Assembly (NCBI RefSeq): GCF_001856665.1
Contig: NZ_CP017781.1
Location: 2,451,501-2,515,500 of the forward strand
Length of the DNA stretch: 64,000 nucleotides
Source of the DNA: Rhodobacter xanthinilyticus
GTDB lineage: Bacteria; Pseudomonadota; Alphaproteobacteria; Rhodobacterales; Rhodobacteraceae
Direction of reading: 5' to 3'
A model generated the notes under the pieces. The model saw only the letters and a program-made list of their open reading frames with translations. It did not search any database and was not told the origin of the DNA. Position numbers and translations under genes: made by a program. This document shows, one piece after another, positions 15,592-61,683 of the stretch. Positions within the stretch are counted from its first letter, which is position 1. Every line of letters begins with the position of its first letter.

Positions 15592-15777
15592 TTAGGGCAG
15601 TTTGCGGCTCACCACATAGTCGGCCAAGACTTGCCAATAGTGCTCGGCATCCCTGAACCCTTGGGCTTGGGCCGCGCGGTTCTCAGCCTCAGAACGAGAA
15701 AGACCGCCATCATACTGGATGATAGCGGCCCTCTCCTCGAACGCGTCGATGTCTGGGATGGGTTTCAGTGGCGGCAT
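15592..15777 (-). CDS. Small integrase-linked protein
   Basis: A 61-residue, Ala/Glu-rich, probably helical soluble protein (DAFEERAAIIQYDGGLSRSE and NRAAQAQGFRDAEHYWQVLADYV). Its ATG lies 12 bases inside the 3' end of the integrase gene, so it is coupled to it. Similar short proteins often sit directly behind integrases in alphaproteobacterial islands, but I know no function for them. An excisionase role is conceivable although it lacks a clear helix-turn-helix. Confidence 0.6.
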   Translation of the reverse strand: MPPLKPIPDIDAFEERAAIIQYDGGLSRSEAENRAAQAQGFRDAEHYWQVLADYVVSRKLP

Positions 15778-16982: not shown

Positions 16983-17063
16983 GCGTCCTCCATCTGGGGC
17001 CTTTGCCCCAATGTTTGGTTGTTGCTGATTTTTCTGATTTGGTTCTTCGGCTTAGAGGGATTG

Positions 17064-17258
17064 CTAAGTTCCCTGCCGTGCCTCGTCTGGCCCCAAGACC
17101 TTGATAATCATCGAAAGGTCTGGTTCCCCATACTCCCCCGCCAGTGGTCCGCTTAAGGCCACCCCGGTCACATGGTCGTCTTCCACCGTCTCCACCCAGA
17201 ACCAATGCTCTGGCACCTCGTCAAAGGCCCCGATCACCACCACGTCACCGGGTTTCAT
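17064..17258 (-). CDS. Small acidic hypothetical protein
   Basis: A 64-residue acidic protein (MKPGDVVVIGAFDEVPEHWFWVETV) with a beta-rich, SH3-like look: MKPGDVVVI, HWFWVETVEDDHVTGVAL. The start at 17258 overlaps the end of the preceding 55-residue gene by 14 bases, so the two are probably co-translated. No family recognised. It may be a small DNA- or protein-binding accessory of the element; this is a guess from size and context. Confidence 0.55.
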   Translation of the reverse strand: MKPGDVVVIGAFDEVPEHWFWVETVEDDHVTGVALSGPLAGEYGEPDLSMIIKVLGPDEARQGT

Positions 17259-17412
17259 CGAACCACCCTGCCTTGAGGCACTCTTTGAACAAGGCCATAG
17301 CCAGCCCATGGCTGATCCTGCCTGCCACCCAGACCACCAGAAAAAGGCTGATCCAGCCCCGCACTGCAAAAAGAAAACCCCCGGCCAAGCCGAGGGTGAC
17401 GATCGCTTTCAT
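17245..17412 (-). CDS. 55-residue membrane peptide
   Basis: Begins MKAIVTLGLAGGFLFAVRG and continues WISLFLVVWVAGRISHG, giving one or two hydrophobic helices, and ends KAGWFDETR. AGGAG is placed eight bases before the ATG, and the 3' end overlaps the next gene, both supporting translation. Codons 6-15 coincide with a stem-loop followed by a T-rich run on the same strand, which would act as a terminator inside the coding sequence. It is either a real small membrane protein under attenuation or an open frame over a terminator. Confidence 0.5.
   Translation of the reverse strand: MKAIVTLGLAGGFLFAVRGWISLFLVVWVAGRISHGLAMALFKECLKAGWFDETR
17367..17397 (-). terminator. Intrinsic terminator or attenuator inside the start of a small gene
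   Basis: On the minus strand ACCCTCGGC pairs with GCCGGGGGT (9 bp, one T-G) around TTG and is followed directly by TTTCTTTTT. It lies 15-45 bases inside the 55-residue frame starting at 17412. Confidence 0.55.
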
Positions 17413-17544
17413 CGGATATACTCCTGTTTCTGCTTCCTATTTCAGATACGGGAGCTTCCTCAGTTTTCTTGGGGTGGGGCGAAGTTGCCTATTGCGAAGC
17501 GGACCTAAACAGGTGACTTTCCTCGGTAACCAATGGAGCGCCCG

Positions 17545-17922
17545 ATGAATCGAATTTTATGTTTGGGTGCGATTGCGGCTCTTCTTTCTGCTTGCTACCC
17601 GACCGCAGAAGTTACTGAACGTTTCCCTGTTGCGGCTAAGGCAAAAGTGACGAACGTAGATGCTTTTCGCGATTGCATGATGGATGGTCTAAACCCCATG
17701 GAAGGCTGGCTGACTAATCGTCGCGATGTTCAGCAAGAAGTTCGATCCGATGGAACTCGAATTGACACGAGTGTCGCGGGTGGGAATGTGCAACTCTCAC
17801 GAACCGAAATCTTCGCAACTGGTGACGTCCAAATTCGTATTGCCGAGTACGCGAACGTAGCCCTTATTGACCGAAGCCCTGAGAGAGAAGTGTTCAGGAA
17901 ATGTGCTGCAATCCAGGGCTAG
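17545..17922 (+). CDS. Hypothetical lipoprotein of the integrative element
   Basis: A 125-residue protein with an N-terminal signal and lipobox LLSAC (Cys at residue 17), so it should be a periplasm-facing lipoprotein. The mature part has two more Cys (RDCMMDG and RKCAAIQ). I prefer the start at 17545 (MNRILCLGAI) because GGAG lies six bases upstream. No family recognised. As cargo of a mobile element, a surface lipoprotein could modify phage adsorption or cell contact, but no direct evidence exists here. Confidence 0.65.
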   Translation: MNRILCLGAIAALLSACYPTAEVTERFPVAAKAKVTNVDAFRDCMMDGLNPMEGWLTNRRDVQQEVRSDGTRIDTSVAGGNVQLSRTEIFATGDVQIRIAEYANVALIDRSPEREVFRKCAAIQG

Positions 17923-17953
17923 CCTTCAGTATTTCCCATGATGGACCTACAGT

Positions 17954-18367
17954 ATGTGGAGCAGAATAAAAGAAAAGTTCAGTGGATCAACAGATTTGGT
18001 CCACCAGATCTATGAACGCGCCATCAAAGAGACTGGGGCCGCCGTGGACAGCGAAGCGGCTGGAAAGATCAAGGAGGCGACCAGATCCGCCATCACTACA
18101 GCGCGCAGGATCTCACTTTATCTGACCGATGTGAACGGTGACGGCAAGTTCGACGGTGACGACATCAAGCTTGCCGCAGAGAAGGCGGGCGTTGCATGGG
18201 ACAAGATCGACCCAGACCTAAAGACCGCATTGCTAGCGGGTGGAGCCGCAGGGATAGGTGTCAACTTCATCCCTTTCGTGGGTCAAGCAATTGCGATTCC
18301 CGCCTTCGTTGGCACCTCCGCCTATTTCTATCTGGTCGCCAAACTTAGGGGGATCGGAAAGAATTAG
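17954..18367 (+). CDS. Hypothetical protein with EF-hand-like loop and C-terminal hydrophobic helices
   Basis: A 137-residue protein in three parts. Residues 1-55 form a charged helical region. DVNGDGKFDGDDIKLAAEKA at about 58-77 matches a calcium-binding EF-hand loop (Asp/Asn at positions 1, 3, 5 and an acidic residue at 12). Residues 92-130 are hydrophobic with a helical hairpin (LLAGGAAGIGVNFIPFVGQA, then IPAFVGTSAYFYLVAKL) that could insert into a membrane. It lies 31 bases after the lipoprotein gene on the same strand. No family recognised; a calcium-responsive or membrane-inserting cargo protein is possible. Confidence 0.6.
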   Translation: MWSRIKEKFSGSTDLVHQIYERAIKETGAAVDSEAAGKIKEATRSAITTARRISLYLTDVNGDGKFDGDDIKLAAEKAGVAWDKIDPDLKTALLAGGAAGIGVNFIPFVGQAIAIPAFVGTSAYFYLVAKLRGIGKN

Positions 18368-18432
18368 TCGCCCCACCCGTTGCCCCACGCCCAACGGTCT
18401 TGGCAGAAACCCTTTGGCGGTCAGTACAGTCT

Positions 18433-18468
18433 TTCGAATCCTACCGCCCCAGCCATCCTCCCTTTTCG
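18433..18468. repeat. attR-like 36-bp direct repeat
   Basis: Identical to 12277-12312, carrying only the 3' part of tRNA-Gln (from the T loop) and 13 bases beyond CCA. No upstream tRNA half is present, so this is the distal att copy and not a second tRNA gene. Between 18469 and 18614 there is only non-coding sequence, presumably the promoter of the next gene. Confidence 0.93.
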
Positions 18469-18614
18469 AGAGCCGATCAACGCCGCGCCGCGCGCCAGCG
18501 ATCGCCTGCGCTTTGCCCGAGGCGCTGTCACCGTCCCCGGCCGAAACGCGCCGCGTCCGAGAGCGCGAAACCTGTCGTTAACCCCGCCCCGATAGTCTGA
18601 TCGCAAGGTCCTCC

Positions 18615-18914
18615 ATGCGAATCGAACTCTCTGTCCTGCTGTTTTCAGCCCTTGTCGGCCCGCTGGCCGCGCTGCACGCCCCCGATGCGCGCAGCGAAGG
18701 CCCCTGGATCGTGATCGTGCCGCCCTGGCGAGACCCCGGCACCGTGATTTCGCGCGCCGGCGCGCGGGAGATCGGCCCAAGCTCGGCCCCCTGGGGCCAC
18801 CTCGTCGCCGCCCCCTCCCCCGCGGCCCGCGAGGCCCTGATCGAAACCGGGGGATGGTTGGTGATGAATGCCGACTTTGCCCTCGGGCTCTGCGGCTCTG
18901 ATGATGGTGGATGA
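18615..18914 (+). CDS. Hypothetical exported protein upstream of chemoreceptor
   Basis: A 99-residue protein with a hydrophobic N-terminal segment ([20 protein letters not shown]) that looks like a signal peptide or membrane anchor, followed by a short periplasmic domain ([33 protein letters not shown]). Its stop overlaps the ATG of the chemoreceptor gene, so both are likely one transcript. Positional coupling suggests a partner or regulator of the receptor; no family recognised. Confidence 0.6.
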
Positions 18915-20614
18915 TGACAACTGAACTCGAACATTTGCTCTCCCGCACGCGGCTGAACTTCTTGCTCGGGGCGGCGCTCGGCGCGGTCCTGGTGATCACC
19001 ATCGCCTGGCAGGTCGGCACCGCACTGCCCTTCGCCGCCAGCGTCTCGACGATTTTCGTTACCGTCGCCTTCCTCGGCTGGCGCCTGGGGGATACGCCGA
19101 CCGGCCGCACCCTGCTCGCCCAGGGCGCCGTCGGTCAGGCGATCGCGCTGACCGGCGCGCTCACCGGCCATCCGTGGCAGGTCGACAGCCACATGATCTT
19201 CTTCGCATTGCTCGCGGTGATCATCCGCCTCGTCGATATCCGCGCGATCGTGTTCGCCGCTGCCACGATCGTGGCGCATCACCTGGTCCTCTCGGTCGCG
19301 ATGCCGGGGCTGCTCTACCCGGGCGCCGACCTGCTCGCCAATGTCTCGCGCACCCTCGTCCATGGCGCCATCGTCGCCGCCGAAACCGTCGTGCTCGTGC
19401 TCGCCGTGCGCAACCGTCAACAGATGCTAGCCTCGCTCGAGGAGCGCCTCGCCGAGGTCCAGGCGATCTCGGTGGAGGCCGAACGCGCCCGCGCCGAGGC
19501 CGAAGCCACCGCGGTTGAGGCCGAAGCCCGCCGCATCGAGGCCGACCGGATCGCCGCCGAGGCCGAGACCCTGCGCGCCGAAGCCGAGACCACCGCGCGC
19601 GCCGCCTCCGAGGCCAACGCCCGCGCTATCGCCGCCTCCGAAGATCTCGCCGCCGAGCGCGCCGCCCAGGCCGAGCGTCAGGCCCGCGTCGTCAGCGCGT
19701 TGAAAGAGGCGCTGCACCGGCTGTCGCAGGGCGATCTGACCGTGCGCCTGCAACCGCTCGAAGGCGCCGATTACGCCTCGCTCAGCGATGATTTCAACGC
19801 CGCGATCACCCAACTCGCGCAAGCGATCATCATGGCGTTCAACAGCTCGACCGAAATCAGCGGCCAGATCGAGGATATCAGCGCCGCCGCCGAAAACCTC
19901 TCGAGCCGCACCGAACAACAAGCCCATTCGCTGGCCAATGCCGCCGCCGCGATCAACGAGCTCACCTCCTCGGTGCAATCGGCCGCCCATGTCGCCGCCG
20001 ACGCCGCGAGCGCCGCGCGCTCGGCCGAAACGCTCGCGCGCGAGAGCACGGCGGTGGTCACGGAATCGATCTCGGCCATGCATCAGATCGAGCAAAGCTC
20101 GCACCAGATCGCCCGGATCACCTCGGTGATCGACGATATCGCCTTCCAGACAAACCTACTCGCGCTCAACGCCGGCGTCGAGGCCGCGCGCGCGGGCGAG
20201 GCCGGGCGCGGCTTTGCCGTCGTCGCCTCCGAAGTGCGCGATCTGGCCCAGCGCTCGGCTGCCTCCGCGCAGGAGATCAGCGGGCTCATCGATGCCTCGG
20301 AGCGGCAGGTGAAGAACGGCGTGGATCTGGTCAACCGGATGGTCGGCGCCCTCGACCGGATCGCGAGCTCGGTCGAACAGATCACCGCCCGCGTCGCCGA
20401 AATCGCCCGCTCGACCGATGAGCAATCCCGCGCGCTGGGGGAAATCAACGGCTCGGTCGAGCAGCTCGACCACGTCACCCAGCAAAATGTGGCGATGTTC
20501 GAAGAGACGACCGCGGCGAGCCGCACCCTCAACGACATGGCGCAGGGGCTGCGCGATGCGATGATGCTGTTCCGCACCGAGGCGGCGGCAGAAGAGCTGC
20601 GTCAGGCGGGCTGA
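18911..20614 (+). CDS. Methyl-accepting chemotaxis protein with multi-span N-terminus
   Basis: A 567-residue chemoreceptor. The first 170 residues are five or six membrane helices without a large periplasmic sensor, so sensing would be membrane-embedded. A long Ala/Glu coiled coil (about 175-265) follows, then a HAMP-like stretch and the cytoplasmic signalling domain with the conserved hairpin [40 protein letters not shown] (split over residues 415-455). It should control CheA activity. There is no C-terminal CheR-docking pentapeptide. No che genes adjoin it. Confidence 0.92.
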
Positions 20615-36321: not shown

Positions 36322-37422
36322 ATGGCGACGGGGTGGAATTTTCATGAGCTTTATCTGTGGCATGACACCGGGCGCTCGGCGCTTGTCTGCCCGCCGGGGC
36401 TCACCGTCGAGCCCGGCGAGCACGCCGAAAACCCCGAGACGAAGCGCCGTTTTCGCAACCTGATGGAGGTCTCGGGGCTCACCGAGGCGCTGACGCCCAT
36501 CCGCGCGAGCGCCTATACCGACGCCGATCTCGGGCGCTATCACCCGGCCGAGTATATCGAGAAGCTGCGCGCGCTCTCGGCGGGGATGGGCGGCGAGGCG
36601 AGCCCCGGCCCCCCCTTCGGCCCGGGCAGTTTCGAGATCGCGCGGCTCGCGGCGGGGGGCACGCATGCGGTGCTCGATGCGGTGGTGACGGGCAAGGTCG
36701 CGAACGGTTATGCGCTGGTGCGCCCGCCCGGGCATCATGCCGAGGCCGCCGACGGGCTGGGCTTTTGTCTCTTCGCCAATATCCCGCTCGCGATCCTGAA
36801 GGCGCGGGCCGAGCGGGGGCTCGAACGCGTGGCGGTGGTCGATTGGGATGTGCACCACGGCAACGGCACCCAGGCGGCCTTTTACGAGGACCCCGATGTG
36901 CTCGCGATCTCGCTTCATCAGGAGGGGCTCTACCCCTTCGCGAGCGGCACGCTCTCCGAGCGCGGCGCGGGGGCGGGGGTCGGGCTGAACCTGAACATCC
37001 CGCTGATGGCCGGCTGCGGGCATGGCGCCTATCTCGCGGCCTTCGAGCGCGTGGTGCTCCCGGCGCTGCGGCGCTTCAAGCCCGATCTGATCGTGGTGGC
37101 CTCGGGGTTCGATGCCTCGGCGGCCGATCCGCTCGGGCGGATGATGCTGCACTCGGAGAGCTACCGCGCGATGACGCGGATGCTGATGGAGGCGGCGGCG
37201 GATCTCTGCGGCGGGCGGCTCGTGATGAGCCATGAGGGCGGCTATTCGGCGGCCTATGTGCCCTATTGCGGGCTTGCGGTGCTCGAGGAGCTGTCGGGGA
37301 TCAAGACCCCGATCACCGACCCGTTCCTCGAGGAATTCGCCCATTACCCGGGCCAGGAGCTGCGCCCCTGGCAGGAGGCCGCGATCGCGCAGGCCGCAGA
37401 GCTGCTCGAGGGCATCAAGTGA
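36322..37422 (+). CDS. Class II histone-deacetylase-like amidohydrolase (probable acetylpolyamine deacetylase)
   Basis: A 366-residue zinc-dependent deacetylase of the HDAC/acetylpolyamine amidohydrolase fold. The active-site His pair is in RPPGHHAEA, the zinc ligands in VDWDVHHGNGT (Asp, His) and VASGFDASAADPLG (Asp). The catalytic-side Tyr or its equivalent would be in MSHEGGYSA. The start has GGAGAGAGC upstream. It lies divergent from ugpB and next to a polyamine-type locus, favouring acetylated polyamines as substrate; that is inference from neighbours. Confidence 0.88.
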   Translation: MATGWNFHELYLWHDTGRSALVCPPGLTVEPGEHAENPETKRRFRNLMEVSGLTEALTPIRASAYTDADLGRYHPAEYIEKLRALSAGMGGEASPGPPFGPGSFEIARLAAGGTHAVLDAVVTGKVANGYALVRPPGHHAEAADGLGFCLFANIPLAILKARAERGLERVAVVDWDVHHGNGTQAAFYEDPDVLAISLHQEGLYPFASGTLSERGAGAGVGLNLNIPLMAGCGHGAYLAAFERVVLPALRRFKPDLIVVASGFDASAADPLGRMMLHSESYRAMTRMLMEAAADLCGGRLVMSHEGGYSAAYVPYCGLAVLEELSGIKTPITDPFLEEFAHYPGQELRPWQEAAIAQAAELLEGIK

Positions 37423-37446: not shown

Positions 37447-38811
37447 TCAGAGGCTCGCCTGCACCTCGGTGATCGCCTCGCGCAGGATCCCGGCCACCTC
37501 GTCGATCTCGGCCTCGGAGAGCACGAGCGTCGGCGCGAGAATGAGAATATTGCCCAAGGGTCGCGCGATCAGCCCGCGCTTTTGCGCAGCCGCCGCGACC
37601 TTCATGCCGATCTTCGCCTCCTCGGCGAAGGGCGCGCCGGCGGCCTTGTCGCGCACGAATTCGATGCCGATCATGAAATGGCTGCCGCGCACCTCGCCCA
37701 CCAGATCGAGATCGATCAGCCCCCGCAGCGCGGCCTCGAAACGCTTGCCCGTGACGCGCACCCGCTCGGGGATCTGCTCGGCCTCCATCAGCGCGATATT
37801 GGCAAGCCCCGCCGCTGCCGCCGCCGGATGGCCCGAATAGGTCATCCCGTGCAGGAACGCCCCGCCCGGCCCCGAGATCACCTCATGGATCTCGTCGGAG
37901 ATGATCGTGGCCGAGAGCGGCTGATAGCCCGAGGTCAGGCCCCTGGCGGTGGTGATGATGTCGGGCTCGACCCCGAAGACATCTTGCGAGGCGAAGAAAT
38001 GCCCGAGCCGGCCAAAGGAGGTCACCACCTCGTCGGAGATATATTTGATCTCATGCGCGCGGCAGATCGCGGCCATCCGCGCATGATAGCCCGCGGGCGC
38101 GGTGATCACGCCGCCCGCGCCCATGATCGGCTCGGCGATGAAAGCCGCGATCGTCTCGGCGCCGTAGAACGCGATCGTGGCGGTCAGATCCTCGGCCAGC
38201 GCGTCGAGGAACTCGGCCTCGGTCATCCCCGCGCCCTCGCGCCAGTGATGGGGGCAGCGCAGGTGGTGGACGAGCTCGCGCGCGGCGTCCCAGCCCTTCG
38301 AATAGCCCGGCGTGGTCATCGCGATCGCGAGATGGGTCGAGCCGTGATAGGCGCCGATCCGGCTCAGGATGCGCTTCTTCTGCGGCCGGCCGAGGCGGTT
38401 GTTGTAGTGATGCAGCATCCGCACCGCGGTTTCATTCGCGACCGAGCCGGAATTGCCGAAATGCACTTTGTTGAGCGAACCGGGCGCGAGCGCGGCGAGT
38501 TTCTCGGCCAGCGCCGCCGCCGCGGGGTGGGTGAAATTGTAGAAGGTCGAGTAGAAATCGAGGGTCTCGAGCTGGGTGGTGATCGCCTCGATGATCTCGC
38601 GCCGGCCGTGGCCCACGTTGACGCACCAGAGCCCGCCAATCCCGTCGATCAGCTCGCGCCCGTCGCTGTCGCGCACGCGGGTGCCCTTGGCACCCACGAT
38701 CACCGTGCGCGCGCCGTTTTGCTTGAGCGCGTCGAGATCGGCCCAGGACTGGATCAGATGGGTGTCGGCGGTGAGCACCGCATCGGTGGTGGCGGGGATA
38801 TCAAGCGTCAT
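37447..38811 (-). CDS. Class III aminotransferase (putrescine-pyruvate type) lacking the PLP lysine
   Basis: A 454-residue fold-type I aminotransferase similar to SpuC. HFGNSGSVANETAVRMLHHY, GAYHGST, DEVVTSFGRLG and the end motifs are normal. But the segment expected to read AKGLTSGY has ARGLTSGY: residue 290 is Arg (codon AGG, complement of 37942-37944) instead of the Lys that forms the Schiff base with PLP. A single A-to-G change would do it. Without that lysine normal transamination should be lost, so the protein is predicted inactive or altered. The gene overlaps the nitrilase-like gene by 11 bases and belongs to the polyamine locus. Confidence 0.87.
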   Translation of the reverse strand: MTLDIPATTDAVLTADTHLIQSWADLDALKQNGARTVIVGAKGTRVRDSDGRELIDGIGGLWCVNVGHGRREIIEAITTQLETLDFYSTFYNFTHPAAAALAEKLAALAPGSLNKVHFGNSGSVANETAVRMLHHYNNRLGRPQKKRILSRIGAYHGSTHLAIAMTTPGYSKGWDAARELVHHLRCPHHWREGAGMTEAEFLDALAEDLTATIAFYGAETIAAFIAEPIMGAGGVITAPAGYHARMAAICRAHEIKYISDEVVTSFGRLGHFFASQDVFGVEPDIITTARGLTSGYQPLSATIISDEIHEVISGPGGAFLHGMTYSGHPAAAAAGLANIALMEAEQIPERVRVTGKRFEAALRGLIDLDLVGEVRGSHFMIGIEFVRDKAAGAPFAEEAKIGMKVAAAAQKRGLIARPLGNILILAPTLVLSEAEIDEVAGILREAITEVQASL

Positions 38812-39579
38812 CGGAGATACTCCTCAAATCCGAAAGCTGGGTGGAGCGGTGCGCGGCCGGCACGAGCGCGGCGGCGCCGAGATCCGTGATGAGCAGCGTC
38901 TCGCCCGGGCCCGCGGCGGCGAGCGCCCGCCCGTCGGGCCCCGCGATCAGCGAGCGCCCGCAGAAGCCAAGCCCCGCATCCTCGCCGCAGAAATTGGCGT
39001 AAGCCACGATCAGGCCGAGCTCGGCCGCGCGGGCGGGCACGAGGAAATCCTGCACATGTTCAAAGCCTCGCGGGTTGGCGGTGGGCACCAGCACAAGCTC
39101 GGCCCCCGCCGCCGCCAGCGCGCGCAAATGCGGCGCGAATTCAACGTCATAGCAGATCAGGAGGGCACATTTCACGCCCTCGAGATCGAACAGGCAGTAG
39201 CCCCCCCGGGGGTGAAACTCGCCCTCTCCATCGGCCCGTAGAGCTGGATCTTGCGGTAATGGCCGCGCAGCGCGCCGCCCGCGTCGATCGTGGTGGCGGC
39301 GTTGTAGACGGTGCCGTCCGCCGCCTCGGCCCAACCGATGGTCAGCCCGCAGCCGGTCTCCCGCGCGAGCGCGGAAAGCGCGGTCATCCAGGCGCCGCCC
39401 AGCGGCTGGGCGAGGGCCGCGTGATGCTCGGGGTGGTTGTAGCCGGGCAGGAAGAGCTCGGGAAAGAGCGCCATCCTGGCCCCCGCCGCCGCCGCCGCCG
39501 TCAGAACCTCCCGGATCTTGGCAAAAGCCTCCCCGGTGGCCCCGTCGATGACGGGGCCCTGATAGAGTGCGAGTTTCAT
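38801..39579 (-). pseudogene. Nitrilase-family carbon-nitrogen hydrolase, one frameshift
   Basis: Two overlapping frames together give one protein of about 259 residues. The upstream part (39579 down to about 39208) has the catalytic Glu in LFPELFLPGYN and Lys in YRKIQLYG; the downstream part has the catalytic Cys in LLICYDVEF. Reading switches inside a C7-G5 run (39201-39212 on the plus strand). One additional base there restores SFTPGGGYCLFDLEG. The total length of 779 bases is one short of a multiple of three. The family hydrolyses amides or carbamoyl compounds, here perhaps in putrescine breakdown. Slippage in the homopolymer or a base-calling error are alternatives to true loss. Confidence 0.8.
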
Positions 39580-39591
39580 GGGGATGACCGG

Positions 39592-40620
39592 TTACTTTTT
39601 CAGATTGGTCCAGATCGCGTCATACATCTTCTGCACCTCCTGCGGGCAGGCCTCGACGAAGACCGCATTGCCCCCCGCCGGCGGGTTCGACTCGGGCGAA
39701 TTCGCGACCTCGGGGCTGAGGAACGGCGCAACCCCCGAAACCCCGGCCGAATATTGCGCGTAATTGGTCAGCGCCGCGGCGTTTTCCGGCTCGAGCATGA
39801 AGTTCATGAACTTCAGCGCATTCTCGCGGTTGGGCGCGTCCTTCAAGAGCGCGACGTTATCCATCCAGACGATATAGCCCTGTTTGGGGAAGGCATATTC
39901 GATCGGCGCGCCCTCGACGCGGGCCTTGGCCGAGAAGCCCGACCAGATCATGCCGACCGAGGCCTCGCCCGAGACCAGCACCTCCTTGGCGGTATCGGAG
40001 CCGAACGACGCCCAATCCTTCTTGGCGCCGAGCACGAGATCGTTGAGCGCCTTGAGCTGGGCGCGGTCGGTGGTGCATTGCGGGATGCCCAGATGCAGCG
40101 AGGCGAAGGTCAGCAGCTCGCCCGCGGTGTCGAGCACGTTGATCTTGCCCTTCACCTCTTCGGGCGGGTTGAAGATCATGTCGGTGGTGTTGATATCGCC
40201 CTTGTAGACGGTGCGGTTCACCGCAAACGAGGTCGAGCCCCATTGATAGGGGATCGTCGAATGGCGGCCCGGGTCGAAGGGCACATCGACCCATTCGGGC
40301 GAGATATTGGCGAAATTCGGGATCTCGTCGGGGGTGAAGGTGTCGAGCATGCCCTCATCGGCGAGGATCTTGACCATGTAATCGCCCGGCACCGCGAGGT
40401 CATAGGAGCCGAGCTTGCCCGCCTTCAGCGCCGCGAGGAGCGCCTCGTTGCTGTCGTAGGTATCCATGGTGACCTTGACGTCATATTCCTTGGAGAACTT
40501 GTCGACGAGCTCCTGGGGCAGGTATTCGAACCAGTTATAGAGCAGCAGGCTGCCCTCGGCCTCGGCGGCGGAGGCGAGCGCGAGAAGGCTGATCGCGGAG
40601 GAAGCGAGGAGGGATTTCAT
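39592..40620 (-). CDS. Polyamine-type ABC substrate-binding protein (PotF/SpuD-like)
   Basis: A 342-residue periplasmic binding protein with signal peptide KSLLASSAISLLALASAAEA. The mature start GSLLLYNWFEYLPQELVDKF matches PotD/PotF. Residues that contact the ligand in the family are present in YDLAVPGDYMV and GMIWSGFSA and in the Trp/Asp-rich segments PYQWGSTSFAVN. It should bind putrescine or spermidine. It is downstream of the two permeases and upstream of the hydrolase gene on the same strand. The gene itself is intact although the ATPase of the cassette is frameshifted. Confidence 0.88.
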   Translation of the reverse strand: MKSLLASSAISLLALASAAEAEGSLLLYNWFEYLPQELVDKFSKEYDVKVTMDTYDSNEALLAALKAGKLGSYDLAVPGDYMVKILADEGMLDTFTPDEIPNFANISPEWVDVPFDPGRHSTIPYQWGSTSFAVNRTVYKGDINTTDMIFNPPEEVKGKINVLDTAGELLTFASLHLGIPQCTTDRAQLKALNDLVLGAKKDWASFGSDTAKEVLVSGEASVGMIWSGFSAKARVEGAPIEYAFPKQGYIVWMDNVALLKDAPNRENALKFMNFMLEPENAAALTNYAQYSAGVSGVAPFLSPEVANSPESNPPAGGNAVFVEACPQEVQKMYDAIWTNLKK

Positions 40621-40670
40621 CAGGTTGGCTCCACTGTTGGGTTGGTTTGGTTGGTCTTGTTATGAGGTGG

Positions 40671-41492
40671 TCAGGCGCGTTCGGCGCGGCCCTGCCCGGC
40701 CCGGCCGATCAGCCAGGAGAGCGTGACGAAAAGCGCCGAGATCGCCAGCATCAGCGTCGAGATCGCCATGATATTGGGTTTGATCCCCTGTTTGACGGCG
40801 CCGAAGATCGCGGTGGGCAGGGTCTCGACGCCCGCGCCCTTGACGAAATTGGTGATCAGGAAGTCATCGAGCGAGATGATGAAGGCGAGCAGGAACCCCG
40901 AGAGGATCCCCGGCGCGAGAAGCGGTATCAGCACCAGTTTGAAGGCCTCGCGGGGCGAGGCGTAGAGATCCATCGCCGCCTGTTCATAGGTATCGGGCAG
41001 GCTTTGCAGCCGCGCCGCGATCGGCAGATAGGCGAAGGGGATGCAGAAGGTGATATGGGCGAGCAGGATCGTGCCGAGCCCGCCCTTGAAGCCGAGCGTG
41101 GTGAAGAAGATCAGGCTCGCGACCGCGGTCACCACCTCGGGCACCATGAGCGGCAGGTTGATCAGCGCAAACGAGAGGGCCTTGGCGCGGAACCGCCCGG
41201 CGCGGTGCATGGCGACGGCGGCCGCGGTGGCGATCATCGTCGCGGTGATCGAGGCGGTGACCGCGATCAGGAGCGAATTCACCGTCGCGGCGCGGAACTT
41301 GCCCGCCTCGGGCCCGGTGAAGACATCGAGATACCATTTGAGCGACCAGCCGCCCCAGTTGGTGATCGAAGCCGAGGCGTTGAAGCTGTAGACCGCGACG
41401 ACGATCAGCGGCGTGTAAAGCACCACGAGGCAGAGCACGGTGATCGCGCGAAAGCCGGTGAAATGGCGCAGGTCGATCTTGCGAGCCATCAT
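40671..41492 (-). CDS. Polyamine-type ABC permease (PotC/PotI-like)
   Basis: A 273-residue permease with six helices. The EAA loop is [24 protein letters not shown], and the sequence [15 protein letters not shown] is the conserved PotC/PotI segment. The start overlaps the PotB-like stop (ATGA). Full length and intact. Confidence 0.9.
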
Positions 41493-42409
41493 TTGCCCCC
41501 CTTGGCCTGAGCCCGCGCATAGACGAGCAAAACCCCCATCACGATCGTCATCAAGACCATCGAGACCGCCGCGCCGAAGGGCCAGTTGCCGGCCGCGCCC
41601 TTGAACTGCTCCTCGATCAGCGAGCCGATCATGAAAGCCTTGGCCCCGCCGAGGAGATCGGGCGCGAGGAAGGCGCCGAGCGAGGGCACGAAGACCAGGA
41701 TGCAGCCCGCCACGATCCCCGGTTTGACCACCGGCAGGATGATCAGCGCGAGCGTCTCCCAGGCGCCGGCGTAAAGATCGGCCGCGGCCTCGGAGAGGGC
41801 GAAATCATAGCGCTCCACCGCCGCATAGATCGGCAGGACCATGAACGGCAGGTAGCTGTAGAAGAGCCCGAGCTGCACCGCGAGGTTGGTGTTGACGATG
41901 CCGAGCGCGCCGTCGAAGAGGCCCAGCGCGTTCAGAAGCTCGTTCAGCGGGCCGCCGTCGCGGATCAGGAATTTCATCGAGACGGTGCGGATCAAGAGGT
42001 TCACCCAATAGGGCACGGTGACGAGAAAGAGCCAGAGCGCGCGGCTTCTCGGCGCCCGCGTGGCGATGAACCAGGCGGTCGGGAAGCCGACGATGAGGCA
42101 CAGGAGCGTCGCCAGCCCCGCCTGCCAGATCGAGCGCCAGAAGATCGTCAGATAGGTCCATTCGATCACCGGCGGCTCATCGCCGAAGAACCCGCGGTTG
42201 AGGAAGAAATGGTCATAGGCCGCAAGCGTCGGGCGCCAGATCACGCCGCCGCGGAACTCCTGGGTGAGGAAGGAGTAGACCGCCATCAGGAGCACCGGCA
42301 CCAGCATGAAAAGGCCGATCATCAGCCAGCCGGGCAGCATCAGCCGCCCCGCCGCGCCGCGGTAGATCGACGAGCCGGAGCCGCCGCCCGAGGGACCCCC
42401 GCCCGCCAT
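41489..42409 (-). CDS. Polyamine-type ABC permease (PotB/PotH-like)
   Basis: A 306-residue permease with six helices after a Gly/Ser-rich lead. [19 protein letters not shown] and the EAA loop [24 protein letters not shown] fit PotB/PotH. Its ATG overlaps the stop of the ATPase gene by one base (TGATG). Intact. Confidence 0.9.
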
Positions 42410-43474
42410 CAGTCGACGAGCAGGCGCGCCGCGCCCGCCTCCGGTTTGAGCCCGACCTCGGCGCCCACCTCGGGCAGGCCGGAGGCCACGTTTTGCACCC
42501 GCACCACCACCTCTTCGCCATCGACAAGCCGCGTGCGCAGCTGGATATCGGTGCCGAGATAGACATGATCGAGCACAGTGGCCCGCATCAGCCCCGCGCC
42601 CGGCGCGCAGAGGTCGATCCGCTCGGGGCGCAGGCTCAGATGCCCCCGCCCGAGCCCCGGCGCATGGCCCGCGCAGACAAGCCGCGCCCCGCCCGGCAAG
42701 ATCACCTCGGCGGTGCCGTCCCCCTGCCCCGCGATCTCGACTCGATCAGGTTGGTCTCGCCGATGAAATCGGCCACGAAGCGGTTGACCGGCGCCTCATA
42801 GATCTCGCGCGGGGTGCCGACCTGCTGGACGCGGCCGGCCGACATCACCGCGATCCGGTCGGACATGGTCAGCGCCTCCTCCTGGTCATGGGTGACGAAG
42901 ATGAAGGCGATGCCGGTCTCGCGTTGCAGCGCCTTGAGCTCGGGGCGCACCGCCTGGCGCAGCTTCAGATCGAGCGCCGAGAGCGGCTCGTCGAGGAGCA
43001 GCACCTTGGGCCGCGGCGCAAGCGCGCGGGCGAGCGCCACGCGCTGTTGCTGGCCGCCCGAAAGCTGCGCGGGGCGGCGCTCGGCGAACTCGGAAAGCTG
43101 CACCAGATCAAGCACTTGCCGCGCGCGGTCGCGGGCGTCCTCGACCGTCCAGCCGAGCCGGCGGGTGCCGAAGACGACATTCTCGAGCACCGTCATATGG
43201 GGGAACAGCGCATATTGCTGGAACACCGTGTTGATCGGGCGCTTGTAGGGCGGCAGCGGCGCGATATCCTCGCCATGGAGCAAGATCGCCCCCTCGGTGA
43301 CATCCTCGAACCCCGTGATCGCGCGCAAAAGCGTGGTCTTGCCGCAGCCCGAGGGGCCGAGCAGCGTGAAGAATTCCTGCGCGCGGATCTCGAGCGAGAC
43401 GCCATGCAGCCGGTCACCGTGCCGTATGTCTTGACGACCTTGTCGACATGGATCGCGATATCCTGTGCGGGCAT
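42409..43474 (-). pseudogene. Polyamine-type ABC ATPase (PotA/PotG-like), two frameshifts
   Basis: The protein is spread over three frames. Frame one starts at 43474 ([21 protein letters not shown]) and is lost near 43410. Frame two supplies the Walker A region, [25 protein letters not shown] and FVTHDQEEA down to about 42742. Frame three gives the C-terminal OB-like domain down to 42409. In both places a single missing base explains the switch (GG where three bases are needed at about 43410; GA followed by GTC at about 42742). The span of 1066 bases plus two equals 356 codons, the expected family length. As read, no functional ATPase is made; two independent base-calling errors are the alternative. 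Confidence 0.85.
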
Positions 43475-43557: not shown

Positions 43558-44361
43558 ATGATGCGGCCCTTGCCGAATTCGACCGAAGCGAGCCTCGGGC
43601 GCGCGATCGAGGCGCTCGGCGGCGAGCGCTTCGAAGTCACGCTATATCAATGGCTTGCGCGGTGTTATGAAATCGACAACACGACCATGTTGGCCTATTT
43701 TCAGAACCGCGCGCCCGAAGTTCTGTTCACCCAGTCGATGCAGCCGCGCGTGCATGATCAAATTTTCAGCACTTATCTCGCGGGCGCCTATCTGGTGGAC
43801 CCTTTCTATACGCTCCACCTCGAGCGCGCGCCCGCCGGCCTCTACCGGATGCAAGACATCGCCCCCGACCATTTCCAGCGCAACGAATATTACGCCACCT
43901 ATTACCGCGCGACGACGCTGGTCGACGAGATCGCCTATGTCGCCTACTCCGCCGAGGGGGTGTCGGTGCATATCGGCCTCGGCCGCGACGCGGCCTCGGG
44001 GCGGCGGTTCAGCCCGCGCGACATCGCCGAGGCCGAGCGGATCACGCCGATCGTCTGCGGGCTGATCGCGCAAAACTGGGCGAGCCTGAAATCGGGGGGC
44101 GATTTCAACGACGAGGCGCTTCTCGATGTGCTGATCGCCGAGTTGCGCGCGGTGCATGATATCGCGCTCAGCCCCCGTCAGGCGCAGATCGCGCTGATGA
44201 TCCTGCGCGGCCACAGCTCGGTCTCGATCGCGCTGCGCCTCGAGATCTCGGCGCAGACGGTGAAGGTGTTTCGCAAACAGCTCTACCGCAAATGCGCGAT
44301 CAGCTCGCAAGCCGAGCTCTTCTCGCTGGTGATGCCGCTTTTGTCGCAAAAACTGGCCTGA
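43558..44361 (+). CDS. LuxR-type transcriptional regulator
   Basis: A 267-residue regulator with a C-terminal LuxR/Fix[44 protein letters not shown]. The N-terminal 190 residues form a sensor-like domain without an obvious receiver Asp or autoinducer pocket; an aromatic-rich stretch ([15 protein letters not shown]) is notable. It is divergent from the frameshifted polyamine importer and most likely regulates it, possibly in response to a polyamine. Confidence 0.85.
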
Positions 44362-56261: not shown

Positions 56262-57314
56262 ATGACCTTCAAGACCCTCGCGACCGGGCTCACGAGCCTC
56301 GCGCTCGTCGCCCAGCCGCTCTCCGCGCTCGCGGGCGAGCTCAATCTGCTGACCTGGGAGGGCTATGCCGACGCCTCCTTTATCGCCCCCTTCGAGGCGC
56401 AATCGGGCTGCAAGGTCTCGACGACCTATGTCGGCTCGAACGATGATTTCGCGGCGAAACTGGCCGCGGGCGGCGGCGTCTATGACGTGATCACCCCCTC
56501 GCTCGACACGGTCGGCATGATGCGCATGGCGGGTTTCGTCGACCCGATCGAGGCGCCGAAAGTCACGGGCTTTGACGGCATCTACCCCGAGTTCTCGGGC
56601 GATGCGACGATCATGGCCGATGGCGGGCCCTGGGCCGTGCCGCTGATCTGGGGCTCGGTCTCGATGATCTACCGCCCCGATCAGGTCGCGGGCACCCCCG
56701 ATTCGATCGGCCTGCTCTTCGACCCGGCCTACAAGGGCAAGATCTCTATGTGGGATGACAAATCCGCCATCTATTGGGCCGCGCGCTATCTGGGCTACCC
56801 CAATGTCTTCGACCTCTCCGACGAGGAGCTCGAGGCGGTCAAGGCCAAGCTGATCGAGCAAAAGCCGCTGGTGCGCAAATACTGGACCACCGCGGGCGAG
56901 CTGACCGAGCTGATGGCCAACCAGGAGGTCTATGTCTCGAACGCCTGGACCGGGCTGACCAGCAAGGATGTCAACGCGCTGGGCAAGGGCTTCACCGTGG
57001 CCGAATTCTCGCCCAAGGAAAAATCCGAAGGCTGGATGGATTCGATGATGCTGGCGAAAGGCTCGCCCAACACCGAATGCGCCTATCAGTTCCTCTCCTT
57101 CATGCAATCGCCCGAGGGCCAATGCGGTCTGGCCAAGGCCACCGGCTATTTCCCGGTCAACCCGGTCGCGGTCGAGGCCTGCATGGATGAGGAGATGAAG
57201 AAGGAACGTCAGGTCGGCAATATCGACTTCGTCAAAAGCCTCGTGATGTGGCAACAACCCGCCCGGCTCGACAAATATATCGAGACCTGGAACGCGGTGA
57301 AGGCGGCGCCGTAA
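56262..57314 (+). CDS. Polyamine-type ABC substrate-binding protein (PotD-like)
   Basis: A 350-residue periplasmic protein with signal peptide KTLATGLTSLALVAQPLSALA; the mature start GELNLLTWEGYADASFIAPF is PotD/PotF-like. Includes YDVITPSLDTVGMM and KPLVRKYWTTAGELTELMAN. Its ribosome site AAGGAG overlaps the end of the preceding regulator gene. It should bind a polyamine or related amine. First gene of an intact four-part importer. Confidence 0.87.
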   Translation: MTFKTLATGLTSLALVAQPLSALAGELNLLTWEGYADASFIAPFEAQSGCKVSTTYVGSNDDFAAKLAAGGGVYDVITPSLDTVGMMRMAGFVDPIEAPKVTGFDGIYPEFSGDATIMADGGPWAVPLIWGSVSMIYRPDQVAGTPDSIGLLFDPAYKGKISMWDDKSAIYWAARYLGYPNVFDLSDEELEAVKAKLIEQKPLVRKYWTTAGELTELMANQEVYVSNAWTGLTSKDVNALGKGFTVAEFSPKEKSEGWMDSMMLAKGSPNTECAYQFLSFMQSPEGQCGLAKATGYFPVNPVAVEACMDEEMKKERQVGNIDFVKSLVMWQQPARLDKYIETWNAVKAAP

Positions 57315-57325
57315 GGCCCGCTCGG

Positions 57326-57358
57326 GCGCCCGGGGTTCCCCCTTTCCCCCGGGCGCCG
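57326..57358 (+). terminator. Intercistronic hairpin after the PotD-like gene
   Basis: GGCGCCCGGGG (57326-57336) pairs perfectly with CCCCGGGCGCC (57348-57358). As in the other two importers it stands between binding-protein gene and the membrane components, without a T-run. Confidence 0.6.
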
Positions 57359-57389
57359 ATCCGCCTCCCCCTCAATCAAGGATACAGCA

Positions 57390-58502
57390 ATGGTCGCGAC
57401 CCCGATCGTGACGCTCTCGGGCGTCACCAAGAATTTTGGCACCTTCAAAGCCCTCCACGAGACCGATTTCGAGATCGGCGAGGGCGAATTCGTCACCCTG
57501 CTCGGCCCCTCGGGCTGCGGCAAGACCACCACGCTGCGGCTGATCGGCGGCTTCGAGCTGCCCTCGAGCGGGCGCATCGAGATCGCCGGGCAGGATGTGA
57601 CGAAGAACCCGCCCTACCGCCGCCCGGTGAACACGGTGTTTCAGGATTACGCGCTCTTTCCGCATATGACGGTGGCCGAGAACGTGGCCTACGGGCTCAC
57701 GACCGGCGGCGCGCGGCCCGATCGGGGCGATCTGGGGCGGCAGGTGGGCGAGGTGCTCGAGATGGTCGGGCTCGCGCAGGCGGGGATGAAACGCCCCGGC
57801 GCGCTCTCGGGCGGCCAGCGCCAGCGCGTCGCGATGGCGCGCGCGCTGATCCGCCGGCCGCGGGTGCTGCTCCTCGATGAGCCGCTCTCGGCGCTCGATG
57901 TGAAGCTGCGCGAGACCATGCAGGTCGAGCTCAAGCGCCTCCACCGCGAGCTCGGCATCACCTTCCTGATGGTCACCCATGACCAGACCGAGGCGCTCGC
58001 GCTGTCCGACCGGATCGTGGTCATGCAACAGGGCCGGATCTGCCAGATCGGCTCGCCCGGCGCGCTCTATGACCGCCCCGCGACCCCCTATGTCGCCGAT
58101 TTCATCGGCGCGGCGAACCTGATCGAAGCCGAGTTCAAGGGCCTCGAGGGCGGGCTCGAGCGGCTGACCCTGCAAGGCGGCACCGAGATCACCCGCCGCC
58201 CCGGCGGCGCCGGCAGCCCGGGCCCGTTCCGCTCCGGCCAGCGCGTGCGGATCGGGCTGCGCCCCGAACGGCTGCGCCCCGAGATCGAGACCAACCGCTT
58301 CACCGGCCAGATCGTCGAGACGCTGTTCCATGGCGACCGGATCCGCATCGAGTTTACCTTCGCGGGCAACCCGACCCCCGCCTTCGTCGAGCTTGGCCGC
58401 GCGATGGCCGACCGGATGGGCACGCTCGCCCCCGGCGCGCCGATCACGCTCGGCGTCGACCCGGCCGAGGTGATGCTCTTTGCCGAGGAGGCCTCGGCAT
58501 GA
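57390..58502 (+). CDS. Polyamine-type ABC ATPase (PotA-like)
   Basis: A 370-residue ATPase. Walker [10 protein letters not shown], signature [15 protein letters not shown], Walker [21 protein letters not shown], plus a C-terminal TOBE domain (RIGLRPERLRPEIE). AAGGA lies upstream of the ATG. It overlaps the following permease gene by four bases. This is the intact counterpart of the frameshifted ATPase at 42409-43474. Confidence 0.92.
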   Translation: MVATPIVTLSGVTKNFGTFKALHETDFEIGEGEFVTLLGPSGCGKTTTLRLIGGFELPSSGRIEIAGQDVTKNPPYRRPVNTVFQDYALFPHMTVAENVAYGLTTGGARPDRGDLGRQVGEVLEMVGLAQAGMKRPGALSGGQRQRVAMARALIRRPRVLLLDEPLSALDVKLRETMQVELKRLHRELGITFLMVTHDQTEALALSDRIVVMQQGRICQIGSPGALYDRPATPYVADFIGAANLIEAEFKGLEGGLERLTLQGGTEITRRPGGAGSPGPFRSGQRVRIGLRPERLRPEIETNRFTGQIVETLFHGDRIRIEFTFAGNPTPAFVELGRAMADRMGTLAPGAPITLGVDPAEVMLFAEEASA

Positions 58503-59368
58503 CCCCCGCCCGCGCAACGCCGCTCGCCTTCTCCGGGCTCTTCGGGCTGCCGCTCCTGTGGGTGCTGCTCCTGCTCGTCGTGCCCTATCTCTTGATGATC
58601 GCGGTGGGCTTCTGGACGCGCCAGTTCCCGCTCTTCGTGCCCGATTTCCAGTTCGGCAACTACGTCCAGCTATTCTCCGACCCGCAATATACCACCGTGA
58701 TCCTGCGCACGCTGAAGATCGCGGTGATGGTCACGGCCTTCGCCCTCGCGCTCGGCTACCCTCTCGCCTACTTCCTTGTTTTCACGGTGGACTCCGACAA
58801 GCTGCGCAACCTGCTCTACATGCTGGTGATCGTGCCGCTCTGGGTCAGCTACCTGCTGCGCGCCTATACCTGGAAGATCATCCTGGGCAATGATGGCGCG
58901 CTCAACTCGGCGCTGATCGCGCTTGGCGTGATCGACACGCCGCTCGATGCCTTCCTCTACAACCAGACCGCGATGGTCATCACCCTGACCTATATCTTCG
59001 TGCCCTTCATGGTCATGCCGATCTATGCGGTGCTCGAAAATATCCCCAAACGGCTGATCGAGGCCTCCGAGGATCTCGGCGTCGGCCCGATGCGCACCTT
59101 CTGGAAAGTGATCGCGCCGCTCTCGCTCGGCGGCGTGGTGGCGGGCGCCACGATGACCTTCTGCCTCGCGTTTGGCGATTTCGTCGCCCCCGTTCTGGTC
59201 GGCGGGCCCGATGGCACGATGGTGGCGAACCTTCTGCAAAGCCAGTTCGGCGCGGCGCTCAACTGGCCGCTCGGCTCGGCGCTCGCCACGCTGGTTCTGA
59301 TCATGGTGATGGCAATCCTGTGGCTCTCGGCGCGGCTCGACCGCGCGGGCCGCGTGGCGATGAAGTGA
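58499..59368 (+). CDS. Polyamine-type ABC permease (PotB-like)
   Basis: A 289-residue permease with six helices; WVSYLLRAYTWKIILGNDGA is the PotB/PotH segment and IEASEDLGVGPMRTFWKVIAPL the EAA loop. Coupled to the ATPase gene (ATGA). Confidence 0.92.
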   Translation: MTPARATPLAFSGLFGLPLLWVLLLLVVPYLLMIAVGFWTRQFPLFVPDFQFGNYVQLFSDPQYTTVILRTLKIAVMVTAFALALGYPLAYFLVFTVDSDKLRNLLYMLVIVPLWVSYLLRAYTWKIILGNDGALNSALIALGVIDTPLDAFLYNQTAMVITLTYIFVPFMVMPIYAVLENIPKRLIEASEDLGVGPMRTFWKVIAPLSLGGVVAGATMTFCLAFGDFVAPVLVGGPDGTMVANLLQSQFGAALNWPLGSALATLVLIMVMAILWLSARLDRAGRVAMK

Positions 59369-59377
59369 GGTGGCGCG

Positions 59378-60160
59378 ATGAAATCCCTCCTGTGGTGGCA
59401 AAAAGGCATGATCGGCTTCGTGTTCGGGGTGCTCATGTTCCTCTACCTGCCGATCGTGATGCTCGTGCTCTTCTCCTTCAACGACAGCTCGGTGACCTCC
59501 TTCCCGCTCGCGGGCTTCACCTGGCGGTGGTATCAGGCGGTTCTGGCCAATGAGCAGATGCTGCGCGCGCTCGGCAACAGCCTGATCGTGGCCTCGGCCG
59601 CGACCGCGATCACCCTCTCGCTCGGCACGCTGGCCGCGCTCGCGCTCGATCGCTACGACTTCCCCGGCAAGGGCCTCTTCCAGAACGCGATCCTCTTGCC
59701 GCTCAGCCTGCCGGGCCTCGTCACCGGGATCGCGATGCTGAACTTCTACAAGCAGCTCGGCATCCCGCAGAGCCTCACCGCGGTCGTCATCGGCCATGCG
59801 ACGGCGCTTCTGGGCGTGGTGGTCAGCCAGGTGATGGCGCGGCTGGCGAAACTCGATGCGCGTCAGGCCGAGGCCTCGGCCGACCTCGGCGCGGGGCCCT
59901 TCGAGACCTTCCGCCGCGTGACGCTGCCCGCGATCCGCCCGGCGATCCTCGGCGCGGGGCTGTTGAGCTTCACGCTCAGCTTCGACGAGATCCCGGTGAC
60001 CTATTTCCTCACCGGCCGCGAAATCACCCTGCCGATCTACATCTACTCGACCCTGCGCCGCGGCATCACGCCCGAGATCAACGCCATCGGCGCGCTGATC
60101 GTGGCGGCCTCGATCGGCCTCATCATCCTCTCGGTCGGCCTCCTGCGCGACCGCAAATAA
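59378..60160 (+). CDS. Polyamine-type ABC permease (PotC-like)
   Basis: A 260-residue permease with six helices; FSFNDSSVTSFPLAGFTWRW is the PotC start, AEASADLGAGPFETFRRVTL the EAA loop. Nine bases after the PotB-like gene, 23 bases before the aldehyde dehydrogenase. Confidence 0.92.
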   Translation: MKSLLWWQKGMIGFVFGVLMFLYLPIVMLVLFSFNDSSVTSFPLAGFTWRWYQAVLANEQMLRALGNSLIVASAATAITLSLGTLAALALDRYDFPGKGLFQNAILLPLSLPGLVTGIAMLNFYKQLGIPQSLTAVVIGHATALLGVVVSQVMARLAKLDARQAEASADLGAGPFETFRRVTLPAIRPAILGAGLLSFTLSFDEIPVTYFLTGREITLPIYIYSTLRRGITPEINAIGALIVAASIGLIILSVGLLRDRK

Positions 60161-60183
60161 CCAATCAACCCAGGGAGTTACCC

Positions 60184-61683
60184 ATGACTGACTACACGCT
60201 CGATTTCTGGATGGCGAAGGCCGCCGGGCTGAAACTGCGCACCGAGCATTTCATCGACGGCGCCTATCTGCCCTCGGCCGACGGCCGCCGCTTCCCGACC
60301 ATCAACCCCGCCACCGGCGAGACGATCACCGAGGTCGCCCGCGGCGGTCAGGCCGAGATCGACCGCGCCGTCGCCTCCGCCCGCAAGGCCTTCCGCTCGG
60401 GCGTCTGGTCGAAAATGGCCCCGCGCGAGCGCATGGCGGTGCTCGAGAAATTCGCCGCCCTCGTCGAGGCCCACACGGACGAATTCGCCGTGCTCGACAG
60501 CCTCGACATGGGCAAGCCGGTGATGGACATGATCAACATCGACGTGCCCGGCTCGGTGATGGCGCTGAAATTCTTCGCCGAGACGATCGACAAGTTCAAC
60601 GGCTCGGTCACCAACACCGCCGCCGACGCGCTCCATTACATCCTGCGCCAGCCGCTCGGCGTCGTCGGGCTGATCGTGCCGTGGAACTACCCGCTGATGA
60701 TGGCCGCCTGGAAGCTCGGCCCGGCGCTCGCGGCGGGCAACTCGGTGGTGCTCAAACCCGCCGAACAATCGCCCCTCTCGGCGAACCTTCTGGCCGAGCT
60801 CTTCCTCGAGGCCGGCGGCCCGACCGGCGTGTTCAACGTCGTCCATGGCCTCGGCGAGGAAGCCGGCCGCGCGCTCGCGCTGCATATGGATGTCGACAAG
60901 ATCGCCTTCACCGGCTCGACCGAGGTCGGCAAGCTGCTGATGGTCTATGCCGGCCAGTCGAACATGAAACGCGTCTCGACCGAATGCGGCGGCAAGACGC
61001 CGCAGATCATCCTGAGCGACTGGGATGACCTCGAAACCGCCGCGACCTATGCCGTCAACGGCATCTATGGCAACCAGGGCGAGGTCTGCAACGCCGGCTC
61101 GCGGATCCTCGTCGCGCGCGAGATCCATGACGCTTTCGTCGAGAAATTCATCGAGATCGCGCAGGCGAGCTTCCTCCCCGGCAACCCGCTCGACCCGGCG
61201 ACCACGATGGGCCCGCTCGTCACCGCCGAACATCAGGCGCGTGTGCTCGGCTATGTCGAGAAGGGCCGCGCGGAGGGCGCCACGCTCGCGATGGGCGGCG
61301 CCGCCCCCGCCGCGCTCAACGCCGGCGCCTATGTCGCCCCCACCCTCTTCACCGGCGTGACCAACCAGATGACCATCGCGCGCGAGGAAATCTTCGGGCC
61401 GGTCGGCGCGATCATCCCGGTCGACGGGCTCGACAACGCCCTCGAGATCGCCAACGACTCGATCTACGGCCTCGCCGCCTCGGTCTGGACGCGCGACCTC
61501 AACGCCGCGCATCGCTTCGCGCGCGACATGGAGGCGGGCGTGTGCTGGGTGAACTGCTTCGATCATGGCGACATGACCTCGATCTGGGGCGGCTACAAAC
61601 AGACCGGCAACGGCCGCGACAAATGCTTCGAGGCGCTGAGCCAATATACCCAGACGAAATCGGTCTGGCTGAACCTCGGCTGA
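60184..61683 (+). CDS. puuC: PuuC-like NAD(P)-dependent aldehyde dehydrogenase
   Basis: A 499-residue aldehyde dehydrogenase. Catalytic Cys in NQGEVCNAGSR, general-base Glu in VSTECGGKTPQ, NAD-binding VPWNYPLMMAAWK and FTGSTEVGK. Closest in look to gamma-glutamyl-gamma-aminobutyraldehyde dehydrogenases of putrescine breakdown. AGGGAG precedes the ATG. Being last in an operon with a PotDABC-type importer, it likely oxidises the aldehyde formed from the imported amine, although the amine-oxidising enzyme is not in this operon. Confidence 0.88.
   Translation: MTDYTLDFWMAKAAGLKLRTEHFIDGAYLPSADGRRFPTINPATGETITEVARGGQAEIDRAVASARKAFRSGVWSKMAPRERMAVLEKFAALVEAHTDEFAVLDSLDMGKPVMDMINIDVPGSVMALKFFAETIDKFNGSVTNTAADALHYILRQPLGVVGLIVPWNYPLMMAAWKLGPALAAGNSVVLKPAEQSPLSANLLAELFLEAGGPTGVFNVVHGLGEEAGRALALHMDVDKIAFTGSTEVGKLLMVYAGQSNMKRVSTECGGKTPQIILSDWDDLETAATYAVNGIYGNQGEVCNAGSRILVAREIHDAFVEKFIEIAQASFLPGNPLDPATTMGPLVTAEHQARVLGYVEKGRAEGATLAMGGAAPAALNAGAYVAPTLFTGVTNQMTIAREEIFGPVGAIIPVDGLDNALEIANDSIYGLAASVWTRDLNAAHRFARDMEAGVCWVNCFDHGDMTSIWGGYKQTGNGRDKCFEALSQYTQTKSVWLNLG

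Follow-up and report, generated by a model that had tools for sequence, protein, structure and literature searches.

A six-gene amine-type transport and catabolism operon of Rhodobacter xanthinilyticus in probable recent decay

An operon of Rhodobacter xanthinilyticus that would once have imported and broken down a small amine-like compound carries four lesions in three of its genes, and is probably a young pseudo-operon that has undergone real, recent decay. It lies in a 64,000-nucleotide stretch (hereafter the window; 67% G+C, positions 2,451,501-2,515,500 of a 3.46-Mb contig) of a 3.78-Mb genome assembled in four contigs, and occupies positions 37,447-43,474 of the window on the minus strand in the order ATPase, permease, permease, binding protein, carbon-nitrogen hydrolase and class III aminotransferase. 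An intact, divergent LuxR-type regulator gene (43558..44361, plus strand; an open reading frame (ORF) of 267 residues, Pfam GerE) stands beside it. The decay appears to be of the ordinary kind known for bacterial genes, and the operon is probably one of two pseudo-operons in this genome.

A preliminary description of the window had reported three single-base frameshifts, one in the nitrilase-like gene and two in the ATPase gene, together with loss of the pyridoxal phosphate (PLP) lysine in the aminotransferase. All four lesions are in the assembly, and the frameshifts were recovered by tblastn with relatives' proteins, by a codon-usage scan and by DNA alignment with eight relatives, in which the window is one base short at each of the three sites. 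The carbon-nitrogen hydrolase gene of the nitrilase superfamily (38801..39579, minus strand) is broken within a G/C run of 7, at about 39201-39226; its halves occupy different frames (39585-39199 and 39226-38816 by tblastn) and match CN_hydrolase over complementary ranges, 1-113 and 132-247 of its 256 positions. The PotA/PotG-type ATPase gene (42409..43474, minus strand) changes frame at about 43410 and again at about 42738, which places the Pfam domains ABC_tran and TOBE_2 in different frames; both breaks lie outside runs of more than two bases, so that two of the three deletions in the operon are outside homopolymers. The aminotransferase gene (37447..38811, minus strand) keeps its frame and its family membership (Pfam PF00202, Aminotran_3, 283.5 bits), and has arginine at residue 290 (codon 37942-37944).

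Are these genes whole elsewhere? The comparison set comprised the best 80 of 425 loci from named genera, retrieved with the aminotransferase as query. Among ORFs of at least 150 residues, 44 of the 80 loci had a nitrilase match, and in all 44 both halves match one ORF. The middle and C-terminal parts of the ATPase lie in one ORF in 52 of 54 orthologs, the other two giving no C-terminal match; the N-terminal piece, a weak query of 21 residues, falls in the same ORF in 41/54, and all three pieces do so in 40/54. Residue 290 of the aminotransferase is lysine in 80/80 orthologs. The comparison with relatives that the preliminary description had called for thus places the nitrilase, ATPase and aminotransferase lesions in genes that are intact in relatives. 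The frameshift pseudogenes of the GeneTack survey (PMC3711429), detected by ab initio frame analysis, are likewise frame breaks in genes intact elsewhere; the window differs from them in having several breaks in one operon and an active-site substitution.

The same counts bear on another idea, that the split genes stay usable through programmed frameshifting or reversible phase variation. Such mechanisms are known (PMC3711429); in their favour, the nitrilase gene breaks in a C/G run, and the racemase gene of a second broken operon, described below, has a run of 15 G. A frame split for a purpose would be expected to be kept among relatives, and the split is seen in 0/44 nitrilase loci; two of the three breaks lie outside repeats, and neither mechanism accounts for the lysine-to-arginine change. 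With the split frames not conserved, phase variation and programmed frameshifting were rejected as highly improbable.

Residue 290 is, as we take it from what is known of the family, the position of the PLP-binding lysine. The protein that the window encodes lacks this residue and is predicted to be catalytically incompetent. Could the aminotransferase instead have switched to a function for which the lysine is dispensable, the operon being remodelled rather than lost? The enzyme is otherwise well kept, deviating at only 2 of 171 near-invariant columns (K290R and S426A), as a remodelled enzyme might be; against this, the adjoining nitrilase and ATPase genes are frameshifted and the lysine is changed in none of the 80 relatives, which leaves remodelling the least credible of the explanations considered.

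Relatives also indicate what may have been lost. The same arrangement recurs among the 80 loci in Roseibium, Salipiger, Alloyangia, Thalassospira, Tropicimonas and others, and intact copies of the operon are found elsewhere in the Alphaproteobacteria. Operons of the first four genera and of others share gene order and the divergent LuxR-type gene with the window but, unlike it, have open nitrilase and ATPase frames and keep the PLP lysine; in the loci at the top of the list (L037-L043), the aminotransferase, binding protein and permeases are 73-80% identical to those of the window. At the identity limits used, transporter and aminotransferase are both present in 52/80 loci, 39 of which also have the nitrilase. 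LuxR-type gene and ATPase were both matched in 52 of the 80, and in 49 of these 52 the LuxR-type gene is adjoining and divergent. As the intact relatives show, an ancestor carried a working importer together with a class III aminotransferase and an amidase of the nitrilase type, and a LuxR-type regulator gene stood next to them in divergent orientation. Within the genus, no close aminotransferase was found in 17 other genomes (best 46%), two of which are only 81-84% complete; the binding protein is found at E <= 1e-100 in 48 of 294 other genomes of a family sample; and a plasmid search with the aminotransferase returned three records at 69-71% and none closer. Such a distribution leaves two readings: a relic, or an acquired piece now being lost by the species.

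In the proposed course of events, the operon became dispensable in this lineage, where at least one more amine-type importer appears to be intact 13 kb away, and selection on the operon was relaxed. Independent hits would then have accumulated: the ATPase gene lost two single bases, the nitrilase gene lost one, and the aminotransferase exchanged Lys for Arg at the PLP site. Read from the first start codon, the ATPase frame stops short of the Walker A motif, and import would therefore be expected to fail; the split amidase and the lysine-less transaminase would be inactive, so that each step of the pathway should fail.

The main competitor of decay is a local consensus error: too few reads, or reads poorly polished, would have left spurious deletions of one base, and possibly a spurious substitution, in an operon that is intact in the cell. 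Frameshifts were sought with a frame-aware hidden Markov model of codon usage, trained on the organism's own genome and run on both strands. At the lower of two penalties the scan of the window returned exactly the three operon frameshifts, which fall within 4.2 kb, and at the higher penalty the two in the ATPase gene only; with more training sequence, a single weak candidate came up besides, at 20664, located at a gene end and with a negative right-hand score. The earlier statement that no frameshift was noticed in the other roughly 58 kb is thereby borne out within the sensitivity of the method: because 74 of 103 planted single-base deletions were recovered (54 of the 67 placed 200 bases or more from a gene end), a few further frameshifts in the window could have escaped.

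The chromosome scan covered 1.984 of the 3.46 Mb, with 10 kb masked, and gave 81 raw candidates, in 52 of which a stop lies less than 20 bases from the frame change, as in neighbouring overlapping genes. Raw rates are alike in this genome (29 per 804 kb) and in two genus-mates (8 per 220 kb and 6 per 180 kb). A homology check by family searches, in some cases also against relatives, of the three window frameshifts and 15 further candidates supported 11 frameshifts, seven of them in two operons. Beyond the window, these are four in the second operon, one each in genes for a PuuC-type dehydrogenase, a GlpK copy and an RbbA-like transporter, and, weakly, one in TrbE/VirB4 at 113,288, whose left part fits the family while its right part meets only P-loop models below cut-off. 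Six others stay candidate frame breaks, in a histidine kinase (1,497,442), a methylase (1,584,667) and a glycosyl-hydrolase-like gene (1,454,217, right part only) and at 2204005, 2548946 and 1417065; candidate 593568 is probably two neighbouring genes.

In simulations that scatter 11 events at random, a single triplet within 4.3 kb arises in 0.2% of trials and two in none of 20,000; with 15 events the figures are 0.6% and 0.005%. The 11 homology-supported lesions are thus concentrated beyond chance, and errors scattered evenly would not be expected to form two such clusters. The 4.3-kb span was picked after the clusters had been seen, and the clustering conclusion rests on the homology-checked set.

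The second cluster is another amine-type ATP-binding cassette (ABC) operon, at chromosome positions 1,511,355-1,516,099 (locus L209, 11355-16099), comprising an ATPase, a binding protein, two permeases and an Asp/Glu/hydantoin racemase; the four frameshifts are spread over four of these five genes. Its binding protein is found at 87-89% identity in 5 of the 17 other genomes of the genus. Among eight relatives, counting matches of at least 55% identity, the halves are joined in one ORF for the ATPase in 7/8, for permease 1 in 7/8 and for permease 2 in 8/8. Alignment with six relatives gives a 5-bp deletion in the ATPase gene and a 1-bp deletion in each permease gene; it also has a one-base difference at the very start of the binding-protein gene. 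The racemase gene breaks in its 15-G run, and its halves are complementary parts of one Pfam family.

The PuuC-type aldehyde dehydrogenase gene (chromosome 1,489,457-1,490,940) has a 1-bp deletion near 1,490,511 relative to two genus-mates; the GlpK copy near 1,530,956 (L283, 10595-11792) has 2-bp and 309-bp deletions relative to relatives only about 73% alike, and two further GlpK-like copies occur elsewhere in the genome; the RbbA-like fused transporter near 1,562,463 (L210, 1347-4054) has a 5-bp insertion relative to two genus-mates. Indels of 2, 5 and 309 bp are not typical base-calling errors and favour decay. Between 1.45 and 1.60 Mb the density of frameshift candidates seems higher than over the remainder of the scan, as in a decaying accessory region or a local drop in quality. 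Runs of 19 C and 13 G, at chromosome positions 2,105,838 and 987,412, are exceptionally long for the scanned sequence.

Several observations weigh against decay: (i) all three window frameshifts are 1-bp deletions, one of them in a G/C run, and no nonsense mutation was seen in the operon frames; (ii) of 13 chromosome sites inspected for sequence context, 7 fall in G/C runs of at least 6, six of them at 1.45-1.60 Mb, three of these six being only probable frameshifts; (iii) when all 81 raw candidates are placed at random, one triplet arises in 64% of trials and two or more in 24.7%; (iv) conserved sites show no clear excess of change, with 11 changes observed against 8.7 expected after scaling by terminal branch length, the nitrilase and the C-terminal ATPase piece being left out; and (v) a resequencing study found errors at 75 of 82 suspect loci (PMC2330054). 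The single-base deletions, the sites in G/C runs, the normal conservation of the remaining operon sequence and the precedent of the resequencing study count in favour of a consensus error. Such an error is nevertheless unlikely, if the most serious of the alternatives. Frameshifts elsewhere are few despite 1,089 G/C runs of at least 6 in the scanned sequence, 136 of them at 1.44-1.60 Mb; most of the window deletions lie outside homopolymers, and the fourth lesion, a substitution, falls precisely on the catalytic lysine; 5-bp and 309-bp lesions occur in the same genome, for which estimated completeness is 99.99%; and a loss of quality confined to 1.45-1.60 Mb would account for some of the list but not for the window, 0.9 Mb away. 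Decay is favoured over error because of clustering by operon, the larger indels, the non-homopolymer sites, the catalytic-residue substitution and the nearby importer, where the scan found no frameshift.

If the operon is decaying, why is so much of it well kept? At near-invariant positions the window deviates at 12 of 781, more than do 37 of the 39 loci with the full gene set, and once branch length is taken into account the excess amino-acid change expected of relaxed selection is not seen, which fits a loss too recent to show. The conserved-site result fits both recent decay and error and does not discriminate between them. Because conserved sites show no long relaxation, the decay, if real, would be young, and because codon usage around each break, as judged by the scan, remains coding-like, a recent loss fits. 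The preliminary description had ascribed the lesions to probable ongoing decay under relaxed selection: recent decay is the best supported reading, by clustering and the larger indels, and relaxed selection itself finds no support in the conserved sites.

With two ABC operons of amine type and also a PuuC gene struck in the same genome, the question of a common cause arises. Parallel recent loss, with amine uptake harmful or useless in the organism's niche or in culture, is a tentative and rather doubtful extension of the decay reading. Another reading is selected loss, in which inactivation of both operons was favoured, for instance by toxic amine uptake, and null alleles were enriched; besides the shared amine theme, it would account for the sole missense lesion striking the PLP lysine, an improbable random target. 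It is very unlikely: after a first fixed null, more hits in the same operon give no gain; the second operon is located in a stretch rich in related ABC ATPases, so that the common theme may be chance; and GlpK and RbbA are not amine genes.

What would the operon have done? The preliminary description called it a polyamine locus, and all four importer parts are indeed nearest to Pot models; the substrate, however, is not assigned, every NCBIfam score (best models PotA, PotB, PotC and PotD) falling below its curated cut-off. The PotB/PotH-type permease (41489..42409, minus strand; BPD_transp_1) scores 228 bits against 348, the PotC/PotI-type permease (40671..41492, minus strand; BPD_transp_1) 202.6 against 326, and the PotD-like substrate-binding protein (39592..40620, minus strand; SBP_bac_8) 208.8 against 582; all three frames are intact. 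The operon thus has the same subunit set as the PotABCD and PotFGHI importers and differs from them in its scores and its broken ATPase. The nitrilase halves, each partial, score 46 and 23.9 bits with the AguB model TIGR03381 (cut-off 410.25). The best NCBIfam models of the aminotransferase, PRK07036 and PRK07480, are also below their cut-offs, and its relatives in the Protein Data Bank (PDB) are headed by 3i5t, an unspecified aminotransferase, and include putrescine aminotransferase 6gwi and polyamine:pyruvate transaminase 9j4z. The putrescine-pyruvate class III aminotransferases, which we take to be SpuC-like, share Aminotran_3 with it; the window protein differs in its sub-cut-off scores and in having Arg for the PLP lysine. 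Judged by these families, the ancestral importer probably handled a small amine-like compound: the binding protein would capture the compound, a small amine or amide, for import by the permeases and ATPase, the nitrilase-type amidase would strip an amide or carbamoyl group, and the aminotransferase would turn the amine into an aldehyde.

A convergent neighbour, an intact histone-deacetylase-fold amidohydrolase gene (36322..37422, plus strand; Pfam Hist_deacetyl), may be functionally linked. A gene of this fold lies between the binding protein and the aminotransferase in 8 of the 80 loci (L070, L074, L077, L081, L082, L091, L101 and L105), and Pfam confirms all seven tested (all but L082). The window protein is 31-37% identical to these in-operon members; closer ones (49-50%) lie elsewhere in 3/80 loci. 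The PDB relatives of the window protein include the polyamine deacetylase HDAC10, but HDAH-type enzymes rank best. Because some members of the histone-deacetylase-fold family deacetylate acetylpolyamines, the in-operon gene lends mild support to the polyamine reading.

The other importer of the window, which, it had been proposed, could make the broken one redundant, is present at 56262-61683 (plus strand) with a PuuC-like aldehyde dehydrogenase, and no frameshift was found in it. It scores 357 bits with the PotA model (cut-off 482) and 575 with PuuC (cut-off 850); its binding protein and one permease have no NCBIfam match at E 1e-60. Elsewhere in the window, Rfam at gathering score returned two tRNAs and nothing else. 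An ORF at 1630-3224 resembles, by eye, a phage-type integrase and adjoins a tRNA, and positions 12000-20000, after the second tRNA (12225-12296), are low in G+C (0.58-0.61); either could mark a genomic island. Part of the small contig C3 of the same genome resembles a Gemmobacter aquarius plasmid, and a different stretch of it matches records that carry IS1247-type elements as well as resistance genes.

Literature searches not aimed at the operon by name returned, among the titles and abstract openings listed, neither experimental work on it nor an account of its decay. In practice, polyamine use should not be annotated from this operon, and the assembly deserves checking. If the decay is real, it would show an early stage of operon loss, with three of six structural genes broken and the rest still well conserved, while a second operon of the same broad type goes the same way; the steps of loss could then be ordered, and a shedding of amine uptake could be tested. 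Should the two amine operons prove to have been lost in parallel, the lesions would mark a metabolic shift caught early.

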